Positions 9,005-34,293 of a stretch of DNA of 64,000 nucleotides are shown piece after piece. Below the pieces are notes generated by a model. That model ran no database searches. It saw only the letters and a list, made by a program, of their open reading frames with translations, and was not told where the DNA came from. The stretch is from the NCBI RefSeq assembly GCF_009905215.1, contig NZ_CP047593.1, positions 2,236,900-2,300,899 on the forward strand, read 5' to 3'. The stretch is from Tichowtungia aerotolerans (GTDB lineage: Bacteria; Verrucomicrobiota; Kiritimatiellia; Kiritimatiellales; Tichowtungiaceae). A program made the translations under genes and the position numbers. Each line of letters opens with the position of its first letter. Positions within the stretch are counted from its first letter, which is position 1.

Positions 9005-9553
9005 TCAGCTGTGTTTTGGGAGAAGTCTCCGAAAAATCAATAAACCCATGCCGGACAAAGAAGCTAATGCGATTACACTTGGTTCAGGAATGACACCCAT
9101 CGTGGTTAGACCCTCTGTATATGAACTGGTTAGGTAAACCTTATTTTCGTTCAGAAGAGTCGGGGATTCGAAATCTGTTACTTCAAGCATGTCGCTATCG
9201 TTGTTCATGCCGGCAGTATCAAAGTCGATCGCAAAGCTCTCAGATGTTTGAGGAGCAATTGCTCTGAGTGTGAGCGGGGCGTCCCATGCAGGCCAAAAGT
9301 CCAATGCATTGCTGTTGAGACCAGTATTACGGTAGTAGCTGTCGACGTCGATTAGAAGAAGGAGATCGTCCTGAACTTCTTTCGGCCCGTTGATATTAAC
9401 TTCAAAGCTGAAGGATGGAGCCGGAATCACAGAGCTGCCGGTAACTACTTTCTGATGAGGAAGTGTATCTGATTGTTCGATAACAGCACTGAAAAGAGGT
9501 GCTGCGCAACACAGCACTGACATCATAAAAAAACGGTATGTAGCTCTTTTCAA
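9005..9553 (-). CDS. PEP-CTERM sorting-signal protein
   Basis: About 182 residues. The N-terminus (KRATYRFFMMSVLCCAAPLF) is a signal peptide and the C-terminus has the PEP-CTERM tripartite signal: VIPEPS, a hydrophobic span ALASLSGMGLLIF, then RRLL. Known biology: such proteins are processed by an exosortase and linked to exopolysaccharide or envelope functions. The middle is low-complexity and unrecognised. A TTG start at 9553 is chosen because AGGAG lies eight bases upstream and it puts the signal peptide at the very N-terminus; an ATG at 9583 would add ten residues. No exosortase gene lies in the window. Confidence 0.82.
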   Translation of the reverse strand: MKRATYRFFMMSVLCCAAPLFSAVIEQSDTLPHQKVVTGSSVIPAPSFSFEVNINGPKEVQDDLLLLIDVDSYYRNTGLNSNALDFWPAWDAPLTLRAIAPQTSESFAIDFDTAGMNNDSDMLEVTDFESPTLLNENKVYLTSSYTEGLTTMGVIPEPSVIALASLSGMGLLIFRRLLPKHS

Positions 9554-9647
9554 ACTCTGATAACTCCTAAATTGAGCAACCATGCTATCTTAATCGGGAA
9601 GAAGAAATCAATAGAAAGTAGCATGTATTTGTATTTAATTTTTTTCA

Positions 9648-20585: not shown

Positions 20586-21326
20586 TTAAAGCGGGATGTC
20601 ATCCGTTATGTCCAGAACCTCAGGCTCATCAATACCGAACGATTCCTCTTCTTCAAGATTTCCTGCATTTTCATCCTCCCACGTGATGCTTTGTATCTGC
20701 AGGATGAAATAGTACATCAGATAATCTGTCGGCTGGAAATCATCCGGGGGCAAAGGAATAATATGACCGTCGGGACTTTCTTCGAAGTCACTGAACGGAG
20801 GAACGGCAACTGCCCGCCCGTTTTTTCCGATTGCCGGAGTCCAGGCATCCGGAACGGCAATCAGCCTGCCATCCTTGCCGTAGACGAACCGACCTTCAGG
20901 TGGAATGGCTACAGCTCGCCCATCAACCCCGATTTGGTAACTCCAGCTTCCTGGCACCGCAATGGTGCGGTGGTCGTATCCGGTCACTGTTATTCCGTAT
21001 GGAGGAACCGCTACACCTCGATGGTCGCTTCCTACAACGAAACTCCATTTTTCCGGAATTGGAATGATTCGTCCGTCGGCCCCGGCCTCGCCCCGGCCTT
21101 TCGGTGGAATGGCCACCAGCCGTCCGTCGGCTCCTTTTTGTGTATACCATCCATCTGGTACGCGAATCATGCGCCCGTCAGGGCCGCGCTCTAATGAACA
21201 TTGAGGACCATAACTGACGAGGTGTCCGTCAGGGCCTTTTTGGGTCTTCCAGGCCGCGTGGACTGTGATAACGGCGCTGAATGCGGCAACGATCAGCGCG
21301 CAAGTTATGAATAATCGAGCACGCAT
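20586..21326 (-). CDS. Secreted protein of ten tandem 17-residue repeats
   Basis: 246 residues. A signal peptide (about 1-24, ending VITVHAA) precedes about ten 17-residue units of the form xDGRxIAVPxxWxxxxG between residues 30 and 195. Units alternate in part between VPxxW (for example DGRMIRVPDGWYTQKG) and IPPxG (ADGRLVAIPPKGRGEAG). The C-terminal 45 residues are acidic (WEDENAGNLEEEESFG...). AAGGAGG precedes the ATG at 21326. I recognise no named family. Regular short repeats with G-D-G-R turns suggest a beta-structured extended or solenoid fold and an extracellular binding role; this is inference. Confidence 0.8.
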   Translation of the reverse strand: MRARLFITCALIVAAFSAVITVHAAWKTQKGPDGHLVSYGPQCSLERGPDGRMIRVPDGWYTQKGADGRLVAIPPKGRGEAGADGRIIPIPEKWSFVVGSDHRGVAVPPYGITVTGYDHRTIAVPGSWSYQIGVDGRAVAIPPEGRFVYGKDGRLIAVPDAWTPAIGKNGRAVAVPPFSDFEESPDGHIIPLPPDDFQPTDYLMYYFILQIQSITWEDENAGNLEEEESFGIDEPEVLDITDDIPL

Positions 21327-21494: not shown

Positions 21495-22313
21495 CTATTT
21501 CCTGCCGGAGGTGACAAAAATTCCCAGTGCGCCCCATGCCTTGGGATCTTCTGCTGCTTTTTTGATTGTTCGCAGCTGAGGCAGGGCCAGCAGTTTCTGG
21601 ACTTTATTAAGCATTTCGACGCGAAAAAGGACGGCGACCCCCAGGAAATAGCGGATACCGAGGTCTTCGGTTGTAATGGGATGAATTTGGGTCGAAATAT
21701 TCTGATAGCTGGTTTCATTGAGCAGTCCGTAAAGCTGGCTTCCGATCAGGCGGTTGCCGCCTTTTTGTTTCTGCCCGGCGCCCGCTTTGCGAATAAATTT
21801 GATGAATGCGTCGCTTCCCGGCGAGAAACTGGTCCAGTTGTCGTCAATGTCCAGAATGCAGAGAATGCCGCCGGGTTTCAGGATTTTTCGAATATTGGAG
21901 AGCGCCAGCTCCGGCTTTTCCAGATGTTGGAAAACGAAGCGGGCGTAGACAAAGTCGAAGCTGTTTTCCGGCAGGTCGAGCTCGTAGAGGTTGCCAAGCG
22001 TGAATGAGACGTTTTTAACCCCTTCGGATTCTTTGGCCTGATGGGCTGTGGCGATCAGTTCTTCGTTGATGTCAATGCCGGTGACCTGCCCATCGTCGCC
22101 GACGATTTTGGCGAGTTCGCAGGCGGTGAAGCCCGGGCCGCACGCAAGGTCGAGCACATTCATGCCGGGTTTGAGCCCAGTCTGTTCCCAGATTTTCTGC
22201 TCATGTTTCAGCGCGATGGTCGCCTGCAGTTTGAGGCGTTCGAGCTCTTCGGCGTTCTTTTCAAAGCGGCCGAATTTGTAAGAGCCGGCGTCGGAGAGGT
22301 TTTGCGTATTCAT
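21495..22313 (-). CDS. SAM-dependent methyltransferase
   Basis: 272-residue class I methyltransferase. Motif I VLDLACGPGFTACELA is near residue 54, the acidic post-motif GIDINEEL near 79, motif FDFVYARFVFQHLEKPE near 123 and LKPGGILCILDID near 148. The substrate is unknown. It is the last gene of a leftward run (FadL-like, REC-kinase, H-box protein) and starts 22 bp after the H-box gene. A GTG start at 22379 would add 22 residues and overlap that gene. FQHLEK is encoded by a one-mismatch copy of the palindrome, though Q-H-L-E is common at this site in the family. Confidence 0.87.
   Translation of the reverse strand: MNTQNLSDAGSYKFGRFEKNAEELERLKLQATIALKHEQKIWEQTGLKPGMNVLDLACGPGFTACELAKIVGDDGQVTGIDINEELIATAHQAKESEGVKNVSFTLGNLYELDLPENSFDFVYARFVFQHLEKPELALSNIRKILKPGGILCILDIDDNWTSFSPGSDAFIKFIRKAGAGQKQKGGNRLIGSQLYGLLNETSYQNISTQIHPITTEDLGIRYFLGVAVLFRVEMLNKVQKLLALPQLRTIKKAAEDPKAWGALGIFVTSGRK
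21916..21934. repeat. 19-bp palindrome, one arm change, in the methyltransferase gene
   Basis: TTTTCCAG-ATG-TTGGAAAA; encodes FQHLEK on the gene strand. Confidence 0.65.
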
Positions 22314-22335
22314 TCGTTTGCTTGAGGAGGAGAGG

Positions 22336-22587
22336 TTATGTTCCCGGAGGGTCAGGGATGAGTTTGTCAGCTTGAGCACGCCAGTCTTTCATGATGGTCT
22401 GGCACTGGTCGGCGGCGACCTCAATGCGCTTGATGTTTGTCTGCGTTTCTTCATCGCTGTGGGTTTCTTTGATAAACTGGCTGTAGCTGCTGATTACAAA
22501 CAGCATATTGTTCAGGCTGTGAACCATCTGGCGGGAGATCAGTTTCAGCTCAACGCCGGGATCGTTGTGTTTGTCAGGATCACTCAT
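22336..22587 (-). CDS. Stand-alone histidine-kinase DHp (H-box) protein without ATPase domain
   Basis: 83 residues. The segment LISRQMVHSLNNMLFVISSY (about 18-37) matches the H-box of the neighbouring kinase (FVHDLNNPLSVINGYVQIL) and the following helix ends in a similar CQ-motif (DQCQTIMKDWR against SRCQDMLTLWR). No HATPase or receiver domain follows. The His is retained while the adjacent Asp and Pro are changed to Ser and Met. AAGGAA precedes the ATG at 22587 and the gene starts within about 10 bp of the kinase stop. It may be a phosphotransfer or dimer-titrating partner of the kinase; this is inference. Confidence 0.7.
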   Translation of the reverse strand: MSDPDKHNDPGVELKLISRQMVHSLNNMLFVISSYSQFIKETHSDEETQTNIKRIEVAADQCQTIMKDWRAQADKLIPDPPGT

Positions 22588-22597
22588 GTTGTTTCCT

Positions 22598-23728
22598 TCA
22601 TTTAAGCAGCGGGAATGCAAGGGTGACGAGTGCTCCGGTGCCGCTGTTGTTGTTTGCCAGAATCAATGAGCCGCCGTGCGCTTCGACAATGTTTTTCGTA
22701 ATGAACAGGCCGAGCCCCATGCCGCCGGACTGGCCTTTGGTGGTGTAGTACTTCGTTTGCATGTCCGCGAGCTTTTCAGAAGGAAAGCCGCCGCCGTTGT
22801 CTTCCACTTCCACCAGGGCGCGTGTACCATCAATTCGCCAGCTGATGTTGATGTTCCCGCCTTCTTCAGGGAGTGCTTCGAGAGCATTTCCGACAATATT
22901 CTGAATTGCGCGGAAGATCTGGACATCATCTCCTTCGACGAGGCAATGGTCCGGTCCGTCGTTCAGCAGAACATGGGCCTGTTTTTGTACGGCGAGGGTT
23001 TTTGCGTTTGCCGCGACTTCTGTAACGGGGTTTTTCAGTTCAATTTTCTGGATAGAAGAGGAGGCTCGCTGAGAACGCTCTCTCCACAACGTCAGCATAT
23101 CCTGGCAGCGTGAGACGCTTTTTTCGATTTGTTCGAGATAATTGACGTTGATTTCTTTTTGCTGGTTTTTTTTGTCCCTGATGTCCTGGATTAAAATCTG
23201 GACATAGCCGTTGATGACGCTGAGCGGATTGTTCAGATCGTGAACGAATTCAGAGGATTTCTCTCCAAGCTGAGCCAGTTTTTCCTTGGCGTTGAGCTGG
23301 TTCTGCAGTTCTGCTGTAAGGCTTTCGAGGTGGTCGGCTGCGGCAATCTGTTTCCGATTGAGTTTGGTGCGTTGAACATAGCGTGCGACAACGTCCCGGA
23401 TTTCTTTGGTATTGAAAGGTTTCTGAAGGTAGTCGGTTGCTCCGTGCCGGATGGCCTCCTGAGCGGTTTCCAGTGAGCCGAATCCGGTGAGCATGATGAT
23501 GGAGACCTGCCGGTCAATGACGCGGATTTCTTTAAGACCTTCAATGCCGCTTTTTCCGGGCATTTTAATGTCGGTGATAATGCAGTCTGGAGACTGTTGT
23601 TTCAGTGCCTCAACACCTTTGTCAACCGAGTCGGCACATACAACATTGTACGTGTCTTTGAAGAGAAAGCGCAGGCTTTCTCTCGGCCCGAGTTCGTCAT
23701 CGATTACAAGCAGGTGGTCTTTTGCCAT
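22598..23728 (-). CDS. Receiver-histidine kinase (REC-DHp-HATPase), soluble
   Basis: 376 residues in unusual order: receiver first (about 5-118, acidic DDE cluster, phosphoacceptor Asp in CIITDIKMPG, Lys in LQKPF), a coiled-coil linker, DHp with EFVHDLNNPLSVING near 160, and an HATPase (NIVGNALEALPEE, VEVEDNGGGFP, GGMGLGLFITKNI). No membrane span and no DNA-binding domain. The receiver at the N-terminus suggests that an upstream kinase controls its activity. It lies nine bp after the FadL-like gene and before the H-box protein and methyltransferase, as one leftward operon. Confidence 0.9.
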   Translation of the reverse strand: MAKDHLLVIDDELGPRESLRFLFKDTYNVVCADSVDKGVEALKQQSPDCIITDIKMPGKSGIEGLKEIRVIDRQVSIIMLTGFGSLETAQEAIRHGATDYLQKPFNTKEIRDVVARYVQRTKLNRKQIAAADHLESLTAELQNQLNAKEKLAQLGEKSSEFVHDLNNPLSVINGYVQILIQDIRDKKNQQKEINVNYLEQIEKSVSRCQDMLTLWRERSQRASSSIQKIELKNPVTEVAANAKTLAVQKQAHVLLNDGPDHCLVEGDDVQIFRAIQNIVGNALEALPEEGGNINISWRIDGTRALVEVEDNGGGFPSEKLADMQTKYYTTKGQSGGMGLGLFITKNIVEAHGGSLILANNNSGTGALVTLAFPLLK

Positions 23729-23737
23729 AGCAGTTCC

Positions 23738-24952
23738 TCAGAATTTATAGCCGCAGGAAAGGCTGATCAGATGAACATTATAATCGTAGTCTCCATCGGG
23801 GCTGTTAACGGATCCGGAAACGGCTCGTCCTCCAAACAATCCAACCGCATACCCAATGTCGAACAGATATTTTTCATTTTCATAGCCAAGCCCAAGAGAA
23901 AGAACTCCTTGGTTTTCATCCGGACCGAGAGTTCCGTAGGTTTTGTTGGGAGTTGGATTTTTGAGATACATAAACCCTGATCGGGCAGTCCAGTGCTCGG
24001 AAAAATCCCATTCGCCGCCGATTCCGATTGTCCAGGTATCTTTTAGCTTTTGCTGAGCTACCACAGCGACTGGAAGAGCTGAATCATTAATGGTTAAGTT
24101 TTGATATTGGGAGAATTCGAGCCACTCGGCGTTTATTTCAGTGCGAAGGGTATCGGTAAGTTCGAGTCCGTAAGCCAGCCCAACGATGGTCGGATACTCG
24201 ATTTTTGCATTCACATCGCTTTTCAACAGGGTGTTCCCGCCGTATGAGTATTCATTATCGCCCTCATATTTAATGGTAAAGGGAGACCGGTAGGTTGCGG
24301 CCAGTCGCTGGCGATCAGTCATCTTCCATGTGAGGGCGCAATTCCAGCCAAGTGCGGTGCCGTCGGCTGTGAGTTTTGAGTGGGTTCCGGCGGGTAAACC
24401 TGCAAAACCGTATAGAAACTGTTTTTGTTCAACTTCGCCATAATAAATATCAGGGCCTATACCAAAGGAGATAGAGTCGGTTAAGCGTATGGCGAAATTA
24501 GGAGTAAAATCAGCAACCATCATGCTGCCTTCATAAGGATAGCCATTGAGAGCGAACGGGCTAGAGCTGCCCCATTGGACGGAGCGCCCAAAAGCGATGT
24601 AGGAGGAGAACCCAAAGGCATATTTTCCGTCTTTGATCGGGGTCGCAATGGAAAGCCCGGGAATGGCGAACCATGGATTCTCGGTGCGGTCACTGCCAAT
24701 GGTATTTTGAAATTCCGTTTCTCCATAACCAATGGTTGTGTTGATTTGCAGCATTGGTTCTTCCAGATCAACCAGGTTGGCCGAGTTGTGGATCGTTGCA
24801 TTGGCGTCATCGGCGAAAGCCCGATGCCCCCCAAAAGCCCCGATTGCAGCAGCTCCTTCCGGAGGGTTTCTATATCCGTCAGCAAAAATACAGGTCTGTG
24901 CGAAAATGGACAGAAGAATACTGGAGGTGAGTATCCGGTTGGGATGGAGCAT
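23738..24952 (-). CDS. FadL/OmpP1/TodX-family outer membrane transport protein
   Basis: 404 residues. Signal peptide (about 1-24), then the mature N-terminus GYRNPPEGAAAIGAFGGHRA and FADDANATIHNSANLV, which match the family hatch region. The rest is beta-barrel in character and ends with an aromatic (SCGYKF), as outer membrane barrels do. Family members carry long-chain fatty acids or other hydrophobic compounds across the outer membrane. It is divergent from the ketoacyl synthase operon across a 259-bp region and heads a signalling operon, so ligand uptake and sensing may be linked. Confidence 0.88.
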   Translation of the reverse strand: MLHPNRILTSSILLSIFAQTCIFADGYRNPPEGAAAIGAFGGHRAFADDANATIHNSANLVDLEEPMLQINTTIGYGETEFQNTIGSDRTENPWFAIPGLSIATPIKDGKYAFGFSSYIAFGRSVQWGSSSPFALNGYPYEGSMMVADFTPNFAIRLTDSISFGIGPDIYYGEVEQKQFLYGFAGLPAGTHSKLTADGTALGWNCALTWKMTDRQRLAATYRSPFTIKYEGDNEYSYGGNTLLKSDVNAKIEYPTIVGLAYGLELTDTLRTEINAEWLEFSQYQNLTINDSALPVAVVAQQKLKDTWTIGIGGEWDFSEHWTARSGFMYLKNPTPNKTYGTLGPDENQGVLSLGLGYENEKYLFDIGYAVGLFGGRAVSGSVNSPDGDYDYNVHLISLSCGYKF

Positions 24953-25072
24953 TTTATATCCTTACTTTGTTCTTAAATTTTAGTCGTTTCTTTTATTATT
25001 GAAATTCAACATGCAAACAGTCTCAGAGGGTAACTTCTGAAGACAAATATCACAAATAAAAAATGGGTGGTC

Positions 25073-25178
25073 TGTACATCATGTGGTGCTTTGTTCGGGG
25101 TCCTCTACCATCGGTTGGACAGGAAGGGGTGAACAATTTTGTACACTATTGCGTTGATGAGTTAGTAAATTTTGTACA
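25073..25178. promoter_or_regulatory. Divergent control region with repeated TGTACA sites
   Basis: The 259-bp region between the FadL-like and ketoacyl synthase genes holds two direct copies of AATTTTGTACA (25135-25145 and 25168-25178, start-to-start 33 bp, about three helical turns) and a third TGTACA at 25073-25078. This looks like a multi-site operator. No regulator is assigned, but the response regulator at 30908 is a candidate. Confidence 0.5.
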
Positions 25179-25211
25179 GACTTCAGCGTTTATAAAGGGA
25201 AATACCGTATT

Positions 25212-26459
25212 ATGATTTCTTCATCTTCAAATAGAGTGGTTGTTACAGGCATGGGAATTGTCTCTCCTTGTGGTATAGGGCTTGATGCCTATTGGGATGC
25301 TCTGATCAACTGCAAGAGCGGTATTGGGCCGATTACTTTATTCGATACGAGTGATTATCCTCTAAAAATCGCTGGAGAAATCAAGGATTTCGATTTGCGA
25401 GATCATTTTGAAAGGGATTGTAAACCAAACCGGTTGGGCAGACAGACTCAGTTAGGTTTAGTTGCATGTAAGATGGCCGTTGAGCATGCCGGTTTGGATG
25501 GTAATTTCCGAGGAGATGCACCATTACGATTGGTGGTCGGAGTTTGCAGTGCGGCTGCCGATATTATCGAAAAAGCCAAAGAAATTATCATGACAAAAGG
25601 AGCAGATCGTGTTCGCCCTTATATGGTAGGGGCATGCCAGCCCCATGCGATTAGTGCAGCGTTAGTAAGTCTGCTTAATACTCAGGTTTCAGTAACAACT
25701 TTGTCGTCAGCCTGTCCATCAGGATTAGATGCCATGTCTACGGCCTTTAAAATGATCTCTCGAGGAGAGTCTGATATTGTGATTGTTGGCGCTACAGACT
25801 CTCCATTGAGTAATACAGGTGTCGCGGGATTTGCTGCGGCTGGAATACCTTCTTGTTCGACAGATTTTCCTCCTGAAGAAATCAGTCGCCCTTTTGATGA
25901 GAAGCGAAGTGGGGTTGTGATTTCTGAAGGAGCAGGTTTTGTTGTTCTTGAACGATTTGATTCTGCTTTGGCACGTGGAGCAAAACCTCTAATGGAAATT
26001 CTTGGTGGTGCTACAGTCACGGATACTCCCGAAGCAACAGAAGGGATGGAAGGTCTTTATCACTCGATGGATATGGCTCTGAAAAATTCCGGCCTCTGTC
26101 CTGGTGAAGTGGATTATATTTGTGCAAATGCTTGTAGTGATCAATTTGGTGATATTGCGGAAGTTCAGCGGATAAAAAAGCTTTTTGGCGAATATGCATA
26201 TCAACTGCCGGTTAGTTCGATTCGAGGTGTAACCGGACATCCCTTAGCTGCAGCAGGAATGTTTCAGGTCATTGCGTGTGCATTGATGATGAAACATCAG
26301 AAAGTTATACCTACCGCTAATCTTCATTTCTCAGATCCTGAATGTGATCTAGATCATGTACCTCTTTTTGCGCGGAATATTAGTATATCTACTGCGATTG
26401 CCAATGGTCATGGAATGGGTGGAGAAAACAGTTCCATAGTGATGAAGAGTGTAGAGTGA
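25212..26459 (+). CDS. FabF-like 3-oxoacyl-ACP synthase with altered catalytic site
   Basis: 415 residues of the KAS I/II thiolase fold. The nucleophile Cys is present in LSSACPSGLDAM near residue 165 and the second His in VTGHPLAAAG near 347. The first catalytic His of the usual NAHGTS motif is replaced: the aligned text is CANACSDQFGD near 309, giving Asn for His. The active-site Lys region is IRGVTGH (Arg for Lys). So condensation or decarboxylation may differ from FabF; it may be a specialised or chain-length-type subunit. It heads a tight operon with two kinases and a regulator and is noticeably more AT-rich than its surroundings. Confidence 0.85.
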   Translation: MISSSSNRVVVTGMGIVSPCGIGLDAYWDALINCKSGIGPITLFDTSDYPLKIAGEIKDFDLRDHFERDCKPNRLGRQTQLGLVACKMAVEHAGLDGNFRGDAPLRLVVGVCSAAADIIEKAKEIIMTKGADRVRPYMVGACQPHAISAALVSLLNTQVSVTTLSSACPSGLDAMSTAFKMISRGESDIVIVGATDSPLSNTGVAGFAAAGIPSCSTDFPPEEISRPFDEKRSGVVISEGAGFVVLERFDSALARGAKPLMEILGGATVTDTPEATEGMEGLYHSMDMALKNSGLCPGEVDYICANACSDQFGDIAEVQRIKKLFGEYAYQLPVSSIRGVTGHPLAAAGMFQVIACALMMKHQKVIPTANLHFSDPECDLDHVPLFARNISISTAIANGHGMGGENSSIVMKSVE

Positions 26460-28912
26460 ACCTTTTTCAGATAATTATATTCATTGGATTGATCGGGAAT
26501 ACTGTACTCGGTCTCTTTGTTTTGTTATCCAACCCAAAGCGTGCCGCAAATATTGGGTTCTTTTCATTAACTCTATCCATGATGTTATGGTTAGGGTCGA
26601 TGTTCTTTTGCTCTTATCAGCATTCTCCAAGGATGCTGCTTTTTTGGATTCGGCAAACATCAATGTTCGCAGGGTTAATTCCTTTGGGAGTCAGTATATT
26701 AAAATTAACGATTGTTCATGATTCTTTAAGTCTGAGGCGTGGTTTTTATGAATTGCGATATTGGTTGTTGGTATCCTTTTCAATAATCATTTTATGTCAT
26801 TCTTCTGTATTCGTCCTCTCAGCTAGCAATCCTACAGCAAGCGAGTTGGTTCCTCCCACTGAGTATGGATGGGGATTTATCGTTTATATGGCATTTTTTA
26901 TAGGTGCCATTATTAATTTTATTTTTTCTTTTTGGAGGATTGCCAAAGGGCGGGGCGGGGCTCAGAAGACGGAAATTCAGTTTCTACAACTGGGGTGTGT
27001 CGCCAGTTTCATAATTGGTGTCTTTCTTATAGCTTTTGCAGAGATTTTAGGCGACCAAGAACTTAGTTTGTTTGTTCCCCTTTCTGTTCTGGCTTTAGAT
27101 GGATTTGTTGCTTACGGGATTGCTACGCGCCGTATTCTTGCCGCGCCTGAAGTTTTACAGCGAGTGGTATCCTATCTTCTGATGTGCCTGTATTTGTCTG
27201 TCTTGTATATTTGCGCAGAATGGGTGGGTAGCCATATATTTCGTTGGTTTGTAATTGATACGACTTATTTTTCAGGTTTGTTGGCAGCCTTGGTTGTCGC
27301 GTTTTCTGTGGTTCCTGCACAACGTTGGATGCAACGGTTTTCTTACCATTTATTCTCCTCTTCACATCAATTTGATGTTGATCAGGTATTGGAAGAAGCG
27401 GGGCATGTTTTTCAGGAAGTTTCTACCGATGAAACTCTGATGGCGTTGTTTTCCGGATTTATTATTCGGGCTTTTCAGACAACTCGGGTGGTTTTGCTTA
27501 AAGTTGGAGCAGATGGAGTATTTCGGCACCATTACGCTTTTCCAGAATGGGGCGAGAAAACAGACTTATCTCTCAGTTCTCAAAGCAGCCTTGTGGAGTT
27601 GGTGCGTCGTGACGCAGAACCTTTTACGGAGGATACTCTGGAGCGGATGCGTCCTTCGATTCTGGTGAATGGTGCTCGCAGGGACATGAGGGCGCTTGGC
27701 GCTTCCGTCGCGGTTGGCAGTTTTACTCATAAAAAACTGCAAATGGTTGTTCTATTGTACCCTAAAACAAGCAGGGCTATTTATGACCTCCGTGAGCAAA
27801 AGGCGTTGCAGCTGGTTTGCAACCAGCTTGCTGTGGCTTTAGAAAATGCTAACCTTTATACAGCTGTCCAGAATGGGAAGATTTACAACGAAATTCTGCT
27901 CGATTCTCTGACCAGCGGGATTGTCGCGGTGGATGATGCTCGTCAGGTAACCGTTTTTAATCAACGGGCTCAGACAATCACTCATCTGCCTGTTGAAGAT
28001 ATTGTTAACGAATCAATGGAACAGCTGCCAGCGGCGTTGACTGAGATTGTCGAAAAGATTTTAACCACTGGGGCAGGCGTCCGGGATTACGATACTTTTA
28101 TTGATACAGGAGAAGATCGGGTTCCTGTTCGGGTCAGTGGATCGGCTTTTCATGGGCACACTGGCAAACATCTGGGAGCTCTCCTGGTGTTCAGTGATAT
28201 GACCCTTTTGCGTAAAATGGAAGAGAGGATTCGCCGAACGGATCGTTTGTCCAGTATCGGAACTCTGTCTGCCGGTATGGCTCATGAGATACGAAACCCT
28301 CTGGTAACGATTAAAACCTTCACAGAGCTTCTCCCTGAACAATATGGAAATCAGGAGTTCCGGGAAACCTTCTTTGATCTGGTCGACCAGGAAGTTCAGC
28401 GAATTGATGCAATTGTTAACCGGCTGTTAAATTTTGCACGCCCGGCCAAGGCTTCTTTAAAGCCGGTTTACTTGCATGACATCATTGAAAACTCCATTCG
28501 TCTGGTCGAACAGCAGGTCATTAATAACAAGATTCAATTGCAGACAAATCTGGCTGCTGAGCATCACTTGATTTTGGCAGATGCTGAGCAGATCAACCAG
28601 ACGCTGGTTAATTTTTTCCTGAACGCCATTCAGGCCATGGACCTCGGCGGAACTTTAAGTGTCGAAACCATGCTGAATAAATCAGCCATTTGTATCGATG
28701 TCCGTGATACAGGCTGTGGTCTTTCTGAAGAGCATGAAAAACATATTTTTGACCCGTTTTTTACGACAAAAGAAAGTGGAGTGGGACTTGGGCTTTCTGT
28801 GTCACACGGAATTATTCAAGAGCATCAGGGCACCATTCACGTGGATAGTGAACCGGGCAAAGGAACGGTTTTTCATGTAGAATTGCCCCTGATTGATGAG
28901 AAGGAGATCTAA
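26456..28912 (+). CDS. Membrane histidine kinase with 7+-TM sensor, GAF and PAS domains
   Basis: 818 residues, starting with GTG in a 4-bp overlap with the ketoacyl synthase stop. Residues 1-300 hold about eight to nine membrane spans, similar to 7TM-type kinase sensor regions. A GAF-like domain (about 330-470), a PAS domain (about 475-590), a DHp with SAGMAHEIRNPLVTIKTF near 605 and an HATPase follow (NFFLNAIQAMDL, DTGCGLSEE, GVGLGLSVSHGI). The layout resembles the PrsK-type kinases of PEP-CTERM systems, but that assignment is inference. Likely autophosphorylates in response to a membrane or lipid signal. Confidence 0.9.
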   Translation: MNLFQIIIFIGLIGNTVLGLFVLLSNPKRAANIGFFSLTLSMMLWLGSMFFCSYQHSPRMLLFWIRQTSMFAGLIPLGVSILKLTIVHDSLSLRRGFYELRYWLLVSFSIIILCHSSVFVLSASNPTASELVPPTEYGWGFIVYMAFFIGAIINFIFSFWRIAKGRGGAQKTEIQFLQLGCVASFIIGVFLIAFAEILGDQELSLFVPLSVLALDGFVAYGIATRRILAAPEVLQRVVSYLLMCLYLSVLYICAEWVGSHIFRWFVIDTTYFSGLLAALVVAFSVVPAQRWMQRFSYHLFSSSHQFDVDQVLEEAGHVFQEVSTDETLMALFSGFIIRAFQTTRVVLLKVGADGVFRHHYAFPEWGEKTDLSLSSQSSLVELVRRDAEPFTEDTLERMRPSILVNGARRDMRALGASVAVGSFTHKKLQMVVLLYPKTSRAIYDLREQKALQLVCNQLAVALENANLYTAVQNGKIYNEILLDSLTSGIVAVDDARQVTVFNQRAQTITHLPVEDIVNESMEQLPAALTEIVEKILTTGAGVRDYDTFIDTGEDRVPVRVSGSAFHGHTGKHLGALLVFSDMTLLRKMEERIRRTDRLSSIGTLSAGMAHEIRNPLVTIKTFTELLPEQYGNQEFRETFFDLVDQEVQRIDAIVNRLLNFARPAKASLKPVYLHDIIENSIRLVEQQVINNKIQLQTNLAAEHHLILADAEQINQTLVNFFLNAIQAMDLGGTLSVETMLNKSAICIDVRDTGCGLSEEHEKHIFDPFFTTKESGVGLGLSVSHGIIQEHQGTIHVDSEPGKGTVFHVELPLIDEKEI

Positions 28913-28916
28913 GCCA

Positions 28917-30911
28917 ATGAGTGCAGCATTGCCAACCAGCATTATATATACGCAGGACGAGGTCCTTCTTCAGCGTTTTCGTGGTTACCTGTATGCCCGG
29001 GCCTCTCTGCAGCAGGTGACGGATCCGGATGAACTGGAACTGATTTTGCATCAGCACAGTTCTACGCTCTTATTTGTCGATCTATGCGGAACAGAGAGCC
29101 AGCGTTTAATTGAAGAGATCCGAACCGACTTTCCCTTTGTCTTGATTGTTGCGCTGGGATCGGCCCGCTCTGAGCCCGCACTGCGAGTCGCGTCTTTGAA
29201 TATCTATGCGATTGAATCTGTTGATCCGGGACGGCTCAGGTTGCAGGGACTTTTTGATCAGGCTCAGGCACACTTAAAGCTTAAGCATGAGAACCGGGTG
29301 TTGAAAGAAAACCTGCAATCAGTACCGGCAGCGCCGGTCGGGCCGCCGCGTGAAAATATCGCGCCGTCACTGCATCATTTTTCGAGCGCATTTCGCCGCT
29401 TCGACAATGTAGGTATCATGCTTGAGAGTATTGTCGAAGGCGTTGCCGCCTGCGCCCGGGTTTCGCGGGTTGCCATTTTTTCGCTGACATCTGATGATGT
29501 GTATGTATTTCGTTCAGGCATCAAGTGCATGGAGGAAACCCGATCCCTAAAGCTCGGTAAAACACACCCCTTTGTGCGCTGGTTCCAGGTCCATGCACAC
29601 AGCATTTCCCGTTCTATGCTTCGTCATATCGAGTCCATGGACGAACGGTTGCTGATCGAGCAAATGCTCGAGCAGACCGGGGCGGAAGTGATTCTCCCGT
29701 TGTTCGGGCGTGAGCGACTCAACGGGTGGCTTTGCCTCGGGCGCTCCTGTTCCGGTGCCCCGTTCGAACAGCGCGATATCGAAGAGTTGACCCAGCTGGC
29801 AGAACAGGTATCGGTTGCCATCGAAAACTCTCTGCTTCATGAAAATATTGCATTGCAGAAGGCCCTGGCTGAAAACCTGTTGCAGGCGATTCCGGTGGGA
29901 ATCATCGCCACCGGCCCTGAAGGCACGGTTCGTTGGTTCAACAGCGGGGCTGAGCAGCTCTTACTTCGTTCTTCAGAAGACGTTATCGGCCGTCCCATTG
30001 AAAAAGTTTCGACGGTGATTGCTTCACTGATGAACCGTTGCATGACCGGGGAAAACTGCGGAGAAGGGCAGGAGTGGACGGAGCCGTCTTCGAAGAGGAC
30101 CTTGTCCATACAGACTCGTCGTCTCGCACAGAACGGAGTTTGTATGGGCGCTATGGCGGTGCTGAATGACCTGACAGAGGAGCATATTCTTCGCGAAAAG
30201 CAGAATAATCTGGAACGCGCTAAATTCTGGAACGAACTGGCTGCGGCAATTTCCCACGAAGTACGAAACCCGCTGGTTGCAATCAGCACCTTTGCGCAGC
30301 TGCTTCCAGAGCGATACAGCGATGAGGAGTTTCGTGAACAGTTCCAGGAGCTGGCTACGCAGGAAGTCGGCCGTCTCAATGGGATGATCGACCAGCTTGA
30401 TGAATATGCCAATCCGCCGACCCTGTATTTTTCCAGTGTGGATGTCGCTGAATTGTTGGATCACTCGGTTCACAACGCCCGTCGGCGCGGTGAAACATCC
30501 GATACACCGGTTCAGATTCAAACAGAGCCCGGTCTGCCGAATATTTATGGCGATTCCGATGTGCTTGCCGATTCCGTCAGTCGCTTGCTGCTCAATGCAT
30601 TTACTGCCGTGGAGAAATCCGCCAGTCCGAAAATCACGCTGCGTGCTTCTCGCGGGGAAATCGGTATCGCCCGCTTAGCCGTCGTTATAGAGGTTGTCGA
30701 CAACGGCATCGGCATTCCCGAGGGACTTCAGCCCAAAGTATTTTCGCCGTTCTGCACAACCAAGGTCCGCGGGATCGGTCTGGGTCTCCCTATTGTGCGC
30801 CGTACAATGATCGATCACGGCGGCTTGCTTTCCATTGAAAGCAGCGCGTCGGGAACGGTTGTCAGTCTGACTCTTCCGGCCGCGACCCAGTCCGTCGGAG
30901 TTGCCTCATGA
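28917..30911 (+). CDS. Second histidine kinase of the operon (receiver-like, GAF, PAS, kinase)
   Basis: 664 residues, no membrane span. The N-terminal 110 residues resemble a degenerate receiver (LLFVDLCGTES); a GAF domain spans about 155-320, PAS about 325-440, DHp with AAAISHEVRNPLVAISTFAQ near 450, and HATPase (LLLNAFTAVEKS, VVDNGIGIPE, GIGLGLPIVRRT). AGGAG in the previous gene's 3' end, about ten bases upstream of the ATG at 28917, supports this start. Its DHp is close to that of the preceding membrane kinase, suggesting duplication and possible heterodimerisation or a shared regulator. Confidence 0.88.
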   Translation: MSAALPTSIIYTQDEVLLQRFRGYLYARASLQQVTDPDELELILHQHSSTLLFVDLCGTESQRLIEEIRTDFPFVLIVALGSARSEPALRVASLNIYAIESVDPGRLRLQGLFDQAQAHLKLKHENRVLKENLQSVPAAPVGPPRENIAPSLHHFSSAFRRFDNVGIMLESIVEGVAACARVSRVAIFSLTSDDVYVFRSGIKCMEETRSLKLGKTHPFVRWFQVHAHSISRSMLRHIESMDERLLIEQMLEQTGAEVILPLFGRERLNGWLCLGRSCSGAPFEQRDIEELTQLAEQVSVAIENSLLHENIALQKALAENLLQAIPVGIIATGPEGTVRWFNSGAEQLLLRSSEDVIGRPIEKVSTVIASLMNRCMTGENCGEGQEWTEPSSKRTLSIQTRRLAQNGVCMGAMAVLNDLTEEHILREKQNNLERAKFWNELAAAISHEVRNPLVAISTFAQLLPERYSDEEFREQFQELATQEVGRLNGMIDQLDEYANPPTLYFSSVDVAELLDHSVHNARRRGETSDTPVQIQTEPGLPNIYGDSDVLADSVSRLLLNAFTAVEKSASPKITLRASRGEIGIARLAVVIEVVDNGIGIPEGLQPKVFSPFCTTKVRGIGLGLPIVRRTMIDHGGLLSIESSASGTVVSLTLPAATQSVGVAS

Positions 30912-31486
30912 AAAACCTGCTGATTGTCGATGATGATCCTCACCTGCTTGAATCTCTCGCGATTGTCTTTTCCGGGATCTATCAGGTGTTTTCCGCTCTT
31001 TCAGCCGAAGATGCAGTCCGAATTGTCCGGAACGAGAAAATGGATGTGGTTTTGCTTGATGTGGTTCTTCCCGGAATGGACGGTATTGAATTCCTGAGCG
31101 TATTACGATCGGAAGCTCCCGACCTTCCGGTTGTGATGATCAGCGGTTCGCCTTCTGTTCAGCCGGTCCTCAAAGCGTTGGAATTAGGTGCTCGTGACTA
31201 TGTTCGCAAGCCATTTGACATCGCAGAACTTCGACTGGTGGTCGGACGAGCCTTGAAAAATGCCAGTTTGGAGCGGCGAGTGAAAGAGCTGGAAGAAAAG
31301 CTGTCTGTCAGCCCGGTAGTGGATCTGCAAAAACCACTCAAAAAAGCGGTCGAGGAATATGAAAAAAAACTGATTCAGCGGGCTTTGCGCCGGACCGGTG
31401 GCGTTCAGACGCGGGCGGCCGAGGAATTGGGCACAACCCGCCGCATTTTGCGCTATCGCATCGAAAAGCTGCAGATCAAATCCTGA
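30908..31486 (+). CDS. Response regulator with receiver and Fis-type HTH, lacking an AAA+ domain
   Basis: 192 residues. Receiver (about 1-118): DDDP acidic pocket, phosphoacceptor Asp in VVLLDVVLPG, Lys in VRKPFD. A linker of about 25 residues leads to a Fis-type helix-turn-helix (about 150-190: LIQRALRRTGG...AAEELGTTRRILRYRIEKL). No sigma-54 interaction domain is present, so it probably acts with ordinary sigma factors, like RegA/ActR-type regulators. It overlaps the second kinase by 4 bp and is the natural output of the two kinases; candidate targets are the TGTACA sites upstream of the operon. Confidence 0.9.
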   Translation: MKNLLIVDDDPHLLESLAIVFSGIYQVFSALSAEDAVRIVRNEKMDVVLLDVVLPGMDGIEFLSVLRSEAPDLPVVMISGSPSVQPVLKALELGARDYVRKPFDIAELRLVVGRALKNASLERRVKELEEKLSVSPVVDLQKPLKKAVEEYEKKLIQRALRRTGGVQTRAAEELGTTRRILRYRIEKLQIKS

Positions 31487-32868: not shown

Positions 32869-33435
32869 ATGTACAGTGCATCTGATTTAAGAAAAGGACT
32901 GAAAATCGAGATCGATGGCGACCCATGCGTCATTACCGATTTCCAGTTTTCCAAACCCGGAAAAGGTCAGGCGATTTACCGGTGTAAGATCCGTAACCTC
33001 AACACCGGGAACAGCTTCGAAAAAAGCTACCGTTCGGTCGACAAGGTGAAAAAGGCTGCGCTCGAATCGCGCGACTTTACCTTCTCATACGAAGCCGGAG
33101 ACGATTACATTTTTTCTGATAACGAAACCTATGAAGAAGTGCACCTCTCTGCCGAACAGCTCGGTGATCAGCGCTTTTTCATTGTTGAAGATATGCAGGT
33201 CGAAATTCTTTTCCACAACAACAAGGCACTCGACATCACGCTGCCCAACTTCGTTGAAAAAGCGATTGCCGAGACCGAGCCCGGAGCTCGCGGTGACACC
33301 GCCACCAACGTCACTAAACCGGCAAAAATCGACAACGGCTATGAAATCAACGTGCCGATCTTCATCAACGAAGGCGACATTGTTCGCATCGACACCCGTA
33401 CCGGTGAGTATTCAGATCGCGTTGCCAAAGGATAA
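32869..33435 (+). CDS. efp: Elongation factor P
   Basis: 188 residues, normal length. The KOW-like N-terminal domain has the modification loop SKPGKGQAIY with the presumptive modified Lys at residue 32, followed by the two OB-fold domains (ALESRDFTFSYEAGD..., FINEGDIVRIDTRTGEY). EF-P relieves ribosome stalling at proline stretches. AGGAG precedes the ATG. The next gene encodes the EpmA-type lysyl ligase, so lysylation at Lys32 is expected. Confidence 0.97.
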   Translation: MYSASDLRKGLKIEIDGDPCVITDFQFSKPGKGQAIYRCKIRNLNTGNSFEKSYRSVDKVKKAALESRDFTFSYEAGDDYIFSDNETYEEVHLSAEQLGDQRFFIVEDMQVEILFHNNKALDITLPNFVEKAIAETEPGARGDTATNVTKPAKIDNGYEINVPIFINEGDIVRIDTRTGEYSDRVAKG

Positions 33436-33438
33436 TTC

Positions 33439-34293
33439 GTGATCGAAGCGCTCAAAGCAAGAGACGCCCTGATGCAGAGCATCCGGGCGTTTTTTCATTC
33501 AGAAGGGTTCATCGAAGTTGAAACCCCGGTGCGGCTTCGGACTCCATGCATGGAGCTGCACATCGACGCGGAACCGTCCGGTGACCATTATCTGCGCACC
33601 TCGCCTGAGCTGTGCCACAAAAAGCTGCTTGCGCGCGGTGCAGAGAAAATCTTCGAAGTCGCCAAATGTTTTCGGCAGGGCGAACGGGGACACCTGCACA
33701 ACCCCGAATATACTATGCTCGAATGGTATCGAACCGGCGGTGACTACATGACCGCATTGGCCGATACACAGAATTTGTTGCAGGCGGTTAGATGCGCCGT
33801 CCCCGTCGCGTTAACTGGGGAGTGGCAGATCTTTTCGGTTGAAGAAGTTTTTGAAAAATTTGCGGGCTGGAATCCAGTCGAAAACTTTGACGCAGACCGA
33901 TTTGATTTTGATTTGGTCGAAAAGATCGAGCCGGAGCTTCCCAAAGACTGTCCGGTTGTGCTGAAAGATTATCCGGCCGAGCTGTGCGCGCTGGCGCGGC
34001 TTAAGCCAGGCCGCCCGGAGGTCGCTGAGCGCTGGGAGCTCTACCTGAACGGTATCGAGATCGCCAACGCCTACAGCGAACTGACCGATCCGATCGAGCA
34101 GCGTGCCCGTTTCGAAAAGTGGGGGGCGCAGCGGCACTCATTCGGCAAACCGGTCTATGATCTGGATGAAGAGTTTTTTCAATGTCTGGAAAAAATGCCG
34201 CAGGCCTGTGGTGTCGCGCTTGGTCTCGATCGCCTCCTGATGATCCTTGTAAGCGCAAAGTCTCTGGATGAAGTTTTGCCGTTCCGTGAATAA
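33439..34293 (+). CDS. epmA: EF-P--(R)-beta-lysine ligase
   Basis: 284-residue class II lysyl-tRNA-synthetase-like protein without an anticodon-binding domain. Motif 2 is FEVAKCFRQGERG...HNPEYTMLEWY, and motif 3 is GVALGLDRLLMIL near the end. It attaches beta-lysine (or lysine) to EF-P. It begins with GTG three bases after efp, so the pair is co-transcribed. EpmB (lysine aminomutase) is not in the window. FFQCLEK near residue 247 coincides with a palindrome copy. Confidence 0.93.
   Translation: MIEALKARDALMQSIRAFFHSEGFIEVETPVRLRTPCMELHIDAEPSGDHYLRTSPELCHKKLLARGAEKIFEVAKCFRQGERGHLHNPEYTMLEWYRTGGDYMTALADTQNLLQAVRCAVPVALTGEWQIFSVEEVFEKFAGWNPVENFDADRFDFDLVEKIEPELPKDCPVVLKDYPAELCALARLKPGRPEVAERWELYLNGIEIANAYSELTDPIEQRARFEKWGAQRHSFGKPVYDLDEEFFQCLEKMPQACGVALGLDRLLMILVSAKSLDEVLPFRE
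34175..34193. repeat. 19-bp palindrome, two changes, in epmA
   Basis: TTTTTCAA-TGT-CTGGAAAA; encodes FQCLEK. Confidence 0.6.

Follow-up and report, generated by a model that had tools for sequence, protein, structure and literature searches.

A divergent ketoacyl synthase and histidine kinase locus of Kiritimatiellota as a candidate private signalling system

In the quorum-sensing systems CqsA/CqsS (signal CAI-1) and LqsA/LqsS (signal LAI-1), the gene for a synthase acting on acyl substrates adjoins the gene for a membrane histidine-kinase receptor. CqsA, which uses S-adenosylmethionine (SAM) and acyl-CoA to form its product, belongs to a fold class other than that of the ketoacyl synthases. 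In the photopyrone (PpyS) and dialkylresorcinol (DarB) systems a condensing enzyme makes the signal, which is sensed by LuxR-type proteins and not by membrane kinases. Here we describe a locus of Tichowtungia aerotolerans, at positions 21495 to 31486 of a 64,000-nucleotide stretch of its genome (contig NZ_CP047593.1, 2,236,900 to 2,300,899; hereafter the window), in which a FabF-like ketoacyl synthase (KS; 25212..26459, + strand) is followed directly by a membrane kinase with a seven-transmembrane (7TM) sensor (MK; 26456..28912, +). On the comparative evidence given below, we lean slightly towards reading it as a private, autoregulated, quorum-sensing-like two-component system, in which KS would help to make an acyl-type signal read by MK.

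Each of the described systems shares part of this arrangement. As in CqsA/CqsS and LqsA/LqsS, the candidate synthase and receptor genes are neighbours, overlapping by 4 bp in the window and adjacent in 35 of 40 loci from different genomes that were picked by KS alone (contig ends explain some of the genes absent from this set). The candidate synthase is however a ketoacyl synthase and not a CqsA homologue, and neither of those systems includes the FadL-type channel or the receiver-containing kinase found here. With the PpyS and DarB systems the likeness would lie in a ketosynthase-made signal, the proposed sensor being here a membrane kinase. Synthase and receptor specificities coevolve in CqsA/CqsS (PMC3285556), but there the sensing domains of the CqsS receptors remain over 70% identical, in contrast to the replacement of entire sensor halves seen here. 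ComQXPA of Bacillus joins variable signal genes to a variable N-terminal membrane half of ComP, with a conserved cytoplasmic kinase part (PMC4008528). This is the same specificity block as the one described below, although ComQXPA differs in its peptide pheromone, prenyltransferase, LuxR-type regulator and Gram-positive host. Finally, PhcBSRQ of Ralstonia comprises a methyltransferase, a sensor kinase and a soluble receiver-kinase protein without a DNA-binding domain, and uses a fatty-acid methyl-ester signal (PMC8578825). These three kinds of protein are also present in the window, together with KS, FadL and an HTH_8 regulator that the Phc operon as described lacks; a methyltransferase beside the receiver-containing kinase was found in the window and in 7 of the 40 other loci, those seven belonging to other families. 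By the tests made, the locus appears to work like the synthase-receptor quorum-sensing pairs, and to be none of CqsA/CqsS, ComQXPA, Phc or PrsK/PrsR.

Exchange of the synthase and the sensor half among relatives

The closest relatives provided the main evidence for a link between KS and the sensor. Two loci of the window genus (L029 and L048) are 88% identical in the soluble kinase (SK), 86% in the receiver-containing kinase (RECHK), 85% in the kinase half of MK, 78% in its PAS domain and 75% in FadL, against 44% in KS, 34% in the 7TM domain of MK and 39% in its GAF domain. The same contrast was seen in two loci of the Pontiellaceae (L014 and L135), with 95% for RECHK, 93% for SK and 91% for the MK kinase half against 45%, 28% and 43% for KS, 7TM and GAF, respectively. 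Identity drops about 40 residues into KS and returns at MK residue 430-440, just ahead of the PAS domain; no such drop occurs in the close pairs L037/L041 and L027/L156, used as controls. Mapped from these relatives onto the window, the exchanged specificity cassette extends approximately over 25330..27776 (+), starting near residue 40 of KS and closing where the GAF region of MK ends.

Phylogenies of the two parts disagree accordingly. The SK tree joins L029 with L048 and L014 with L135 at high support, and approximately unbiased (AU) tests on the KS data, made with quick trees, rejected both pairs (p 9e-49 and 4e-6) as well as a clade of the window genus (p 0.004). For L135 and L145, KS and 7TM both grouped with the KS and 7TM of other families. 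Plain fast evolution of KS was considered for L048 and rejected, because its KS is nearer to those of other families (54% identity to L017, against 42-45% to congeners) and because the congeneric clade was rejected by the AU test. Judged from these alignments and trees, KS and the 7TM-GAF half have been replaced as one block in close relatives.

The association extends beyond these pairs. When the distances of SK, RECHK and the MK kinase half were removed, partial correlations over 46 loci were 0.50 between KS and 7TM and 0.38 between KS and GAF (p 0.001), compared with 0.02 between KS and PAS. The GC content of third codon positions is lower in KS and 7TM than in RECHK, the kinase half and SK in 53 of 65 loci, the window values being 0.31 for KS and 0.38 for 7TM versus 0.58-0.59 for SK and RECHK. 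Moreover, KS and 7TM types are concordant throughout the Pontiellaceae except in L139/L146. The candidate signal gene and the sensor half thus vary together over a conserved kinase half, as in a ComQXP-type cassette, with this one mosaic lineage. Since the block stops at the border between sensor and kinase, and both of its parts match the same donor groups, a functional pairing of KS with the sensor can be argued.

Active site of the synthase and conservation of the locus

KS shows full-length homology to the FabF equivalog TIGR03150, at 346.8 bits and below its cut-off of 493.75. Its alignment to FabF bore out the altered active site reported by a first-pass annotation of this DNA: Cys168 and the second histidine (His343) are kept, the first catalytic histidine is replaced by Asn306 and the lysine by Arg338, so the protein lacks the Cys-His-His triad with conserved lysine of FabF (KAS II). 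In 146 genomes of the class, a search turned up a KS subfamily separate from housekeeping FabF, whose profile (A1) gave a clean split between members (514-622 bits) and all other proteins (464 or less). Among 78 non-redundant members the cysteine is invariant (78/78) and the canonical Cys-His-Lys-His set does not occur (0/78). Cys-His-Lys-Asn predominates (48), followed by Cys-Tyr-Lys-Asn (13), Cys-His-Lys-Cys (7), the Cys-Asn-Arg-His of the window clade (4), Cys-His-Lys-Ser (3), Cys-Asn-Lys-Asn (2) and Cys-Asp-Arg-His (1). In Chthoniobacterales loci (e.g. L050-L058), tyrosine stands at the first histidine position. KS proteins without a kinase neighbour were canonical in those examined (e.g. 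L080, L081, L087, L094 and L102). KAS III enzymes use a Cys-His-Asn triad, which the commonest set resembles. These replacements suggest that acyl loading on the cysteine would be kept and that the second step would be unlike that of FabF.

An invariant cysteine beside variable histidines (Tyr, Asn or Asp replacing the first; Asn, Cys or Ser the second) is also what would be expected of our main rival explanation, an intracellular acyl-status sensor. Here KS would be a non-condensing acyl-binding protein, carrying acyl-Cys or docking acyl-ACP (acyl carrier protein), that touches MK directly, and the cassette would covary through protein-protein interaction with no diffusible signal. The covariation of KS with GAF as well as with 7TM, and a core without an exporter gene, fit this explanation too. 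Yet a membrane part that is replaced again and again and exists in diverse types would be expected more with private extracellular signals than with lipid homeostasis, and FadL and modifying enzymes (FAD-linked oxidases, methyltransferases, B12-radical SAM proteins) recur with KS. We regard the acyl-status sensor as an unlikely explanation, although the one that deserves most attention after a diffusible signal.

As the 40 loci were chosen by KS only, the other core genes count as independent evidence of conservation. Besides the MK gene, SK follows MK in 35 of them; FadL lies upstream of KS on the opposite strand in 32, and RECHK likewise in 32; all five genes are present in 30. A six-gene core, with RECHK and FadL diverging from KS, MK, SK and a response regulator (RR), therefore recurs across Kiritimatiellota. 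The first-pass annotation had proposed that its idea would fall if no genome kept more than two of the genes together, and the 30 loci that hold five of them dispose of this objection. Conversely, its unit of eight genes does not hold together, the methyltransferase and a stand-alone H-box protein being lineage-specific: the only clear homologue of the latter is in a congener (L030, 71%). With the KS-MK adjacency in 35 loci, all five genes in 30 and recurrence across phyla, a mere chance neighbourhood or generic clustering of kinases without common function, as might be imagined in a genome with 42 receiver-domain matches, is refuted and its likelihood is practically nil.

Outside these loci, the locus was found in Pontiella sulfatireligans (strain F21; L065) and Lentisphaerae, and a form of it in Elusimicrobia. 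Some of the more distant forms are reduced, those of Chthoniobacterales and Omnitrophota among them. Metagenome-assembled genomes of Chthoniobacterales/Spartobacteria carry RECHK divergent from KS-MK-SK, with no FadL seen, and Omnitrophota carry a B12-radical SAM gene, KS, MK, SK, RECHK and FadL all in the same direction. KS and kinase genes are grouped more loosely in Brocadia, Dethiobacter, Syntrophaceae and Rokubacteria. In Candidatus Brocadia (L089, L091, L096 and L099) the KS-MK pair stands beside a B12-radical SAM protein, and L096 and L099 hold two extra KS genes, the active site of one of them being strongly altered (SxGACSGNY / ASGISG); these clusters may have a connection to the lipid chemistry of anammox. 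A genome assigned to Pontiellaceae (G330) has two RECHK copies of the window-genus type (73% and 65%; contigs C350 and C383), which represent either contamination or horizontal transfer.

Accessory genes near other loci include FAD-linked oxidases (16 loci), B12-radical SAM proteins (8) and O-methyltransferases (4). Such oxidases, together with the FadL/TodX-type channel (23738..24952, -; Toluene_X barrel, PF03349, 149 bits), would suit a system for sensing and taking up environmental lipids or aromatics, in which a hydrophobic nutrient imported by FadL is sensed by the kinases, KS either modifying the nutrient or being present incidentally. We consider this rather improbable: the core has no degradation genes, the sensor half is tied to KS and not to a catabolic enzyme, and FadL is absent from the Chthoniobacterales loci and was not swapped with the cassette in L029/L048. 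In L044 (872-3085, -) and other Pontiellaceae loci, genes for a FeeM-like N-acyl amino acid synthase/GNAT protein and a PlsY-type glycerol-3-phosphate acyltransferase adjoin the FAD oxidase of the RECHK arm.

Operator, regulator and kinases

The window lies in a 3.88-Mb genome on a single contig. All eight open reading frames of the first-pass annotation were found in the order it gave. On the left arm, beyond FadL, are RECHK (22598..23728, -; REC, HisKA and HATPase domains), the 83-residue H-box protein (22336..22587, -; HisKA at 25.6 bits, slightly below the 26.9 cut-off) and the class-I SAM methyltransferase (21495..22313, -), an accessory gene. On the right arm MK (7TM, GAF, PAS, HisKA and HATPase) is followed after a 4-bp gap by the ATG of SK (28917..30911, +; degenerate receiver, GAF, PAS, HisKA and HATPase), which overlaps RR (30908..31486, +) by 4 bp. 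The arms diverge from a common 259-bp control region (24953..25211), an arrangement suggestive of their co-regulation. Directly downstream of the locus (20586-21326, -) lies a gene for a 246-residue secreted-type protein with about ten short repeats GxDGRxIxxP/GxDGRxVAxPP. On the other side (32869-34293, +) is the gene for elongation factor P (EF-P) and after it one for an EpmA/GenX-like lysyl-tRNA synthetase paralogue, a pair also present near the locus in other genomes of the genus.

TGTACA was the commonest palindromic hexamer upstream of KS, occurring 63 times in 82 KS upstream regions with 6 expected, at a density of 2.23 per kb versus 0.094 per kb in other parts of the loci (24-fold). 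The double palindrome TGTACA-N4-TGTACA was found 13 times upstream of KS and 0 times elsewhere in 1.26 Mb; the exact motif has 20 occurrences in 43 genomes of the order, and of 15 that were fetched 11 are immediately upstream of KS. The control region of the window contains three TGTACA boxes, at 25073..25078, within TGAACAATTTTGTACA (25130..25145; one mismatch to the class palindrome) and at 25173..25178. The last belongs to TTTGTACA-N25-TTTGTACA, which has a single exact occurrence in the genome, at this locus, and three matches with two mismatches. TGTACA boxes are present upstream of KS in Omnitrophota/Ratteibacteria as well (L067 and L068). Of 40 loci in which an LGTTRRIL-type helix-turn-helix (HTH) follows SK, 26 have such boxes, which are rare where this HTH was not found.

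The window RR consists of a receiver and a Fis-type HTH_8 with the helix LGTTRRILRYR, and does not have the AAA+ domain of an NtrC-type sigma-54 regulator. The absence of AAA+ noted in the first-pass annotation is thus confirmed, although it is derived: the regulator of most families is a complete REC-AAA+-HTH_8 protein (PF00158 at 229.9 bits in L034), REC-HTH is found in the window clade, and the Pontiellaceae loci read (L014, L025, L044 and L065) have the HTH only. The stand-alone HTH_8 of the Pontiellaceae, of about 75 residues, has no receiver, yet all three kinases are kept. The window RR is derived from a sigma-54-type regulator, and the series illustrates a regulator that loses AAA+ first and then its receiver, while operator and recognition helix remain. 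As rpoN is present in 14 of 14 congeners, loss of sigma-54 does not account for that of AAA+. No consistent -24/-12 site was found upstream of KS across loci, the best sigma-54-like matches being scattered and strongest in a few Chthoniobacterales loci, and the matches of a simple sigma-70 scan were not above those of shuffled sequences.

MK has intact HisKA His, N-box Asn and G1 Asp, and SK intact HisKA His and N-box Asn. In RECHK the receiver Asp/Lys and the ATP-binding residues are conserved in 51 of 51 proteins and the H-box His in 39 of 51, with Arg in 11 and Asp in 1, which suggests that RECHK is a pseudokinase in one clade. The degenerate receiver of SK keeps its Asp in 58 of 58 proteins and has lost the Lys site; at this position a receiver can be recognised in an Omnitrophota relative. 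The N-terminus of MK is a HisKA_7TM-type domain plus GAF, as seen in relatives. A predicted model of the 7TM domain had a mean pLDDT (predicted local distance difference test) of 79.6, and the weak likeness to eukaryotic 7TM receptors returned by a fold search (TM about 0.47) was dismissed as helical-bundle shape and not homology.

The kinases had also been said to recall PrsK/PrsR, the regulators of the PEP-CTERM/exosortase system. TIGR02916 (PrsK) is indeed among their weaker matches, and a PEP-CTERM-like protein with C-terminal VIPEPSVIALASLSGMGLLIFRRLLPK is encoded 12 kb away (9005-9583, -), so that the genome may possess an exosortase system separate from the locus. This comparison did not stand. 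The TIGR02916 scores of MK, RECHK and SK (106.7, 82 and 82.8 bits; best anywhere in the genome, 109.5) are far below the cut-off of 300 and come from the kinase domain only, and RR scores 82.7 against 502.6 for TIGR02915 (PrsR). No exosortase or exopolysaccharide genes were recognised in the locus, whose regulators in their full form accompany KS and FadL across the class. We thus consider a PrsK/PrsR system very unlikely.

Proposed mechanism and significance

The sequences establish the gene order, the active-site changes, the exchange of the cassette and the operator; in the mechanism that we favour, catalysis, ligand, phosphate flow, extracellular step and sign of regulation are what we infer. 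In it, KS would charge its invariant cysteine with an acyl chain and, helped in some lineages by enzymes specific to the pathway, yield a signal resembling a lipid or a polyketide. This product would be recognised by the 7TM-GAF half of MK, and the MK kinase half, SK and RECHK would relay phosphate to the HTH_8 regulator. RR is predicted to bind the TGTACA-type operators between the arms and to control KS and probably FadL, so that the circuit would feed back on itself. Passage of the hydrophobic signal through the outer membrane would probably be the task of FadL. KS and the sensor diverge and travel between lineages together as a specificity cassette, which would give rise to different signal types. 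The earlier suggestion that a lipid-like signal is produced and sensed here gains support from the co-exchange of KS with the sensor half and from the conserved operator upstream of KS.

Several points weigh against this mechanism. KS and 7TM are adjacent, so that a single recombination tract can move both passively, and adjacency of KS to the N-terminal part of MK inflates the co-exchange. L139/L146 combine a type III KS with a type II 7TM, a mosaic which means that the pairing is not absolute, and the covariation of FadL with KS is weak (partial r 0.22, 35 loci with FadL). The loss of a catalytic histidine makes ordinary decarboxylative condensation doubtful. Moreover, no exporter gene was found in the locus core, about half of the KS upstream regions have no TGTACA box, and several congeners, though represented by draft genomes, are without an intact locus.

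We propose still more tentatively, and without leaning towards it as yet, that the locus belongs to an undescribed, multi-phylum class of communication systems, in which KS proteins with modified active sites make private signals of diverse kinds and 7TM histidine kinases read them, synthase and sensor being exchanged as specificity cassettes. This class would take in Kiritimatiellota, Verrucomicrobiota and Omnitrophota, and the KS-kinase clusters of Elusimicrobia, Brocadia, Dethiobacter, Syntrophaceae and Rokubacteria. Literature searches for a system of KS, histidine kinase and FadL returned no match, although an absent paper is no proof of novelty; nor did they return a cell-cell signalling system for Kiritimatiellota, and to our knowledge none is known.

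The KS family is in itself one with rearranged catalytic histidines (Cys-His-Asn, Cys-Tyr-Asn and Cys-Asn-His) around an invariant cysteine. If the proposed mechanism is true, the natural cassette swaps would be ready for tests of specificity and the defined operator for use in reporters, and a whole class, together with parts of several phyla, would have a candidate chemical language made by fatty-acid-type enzymes.

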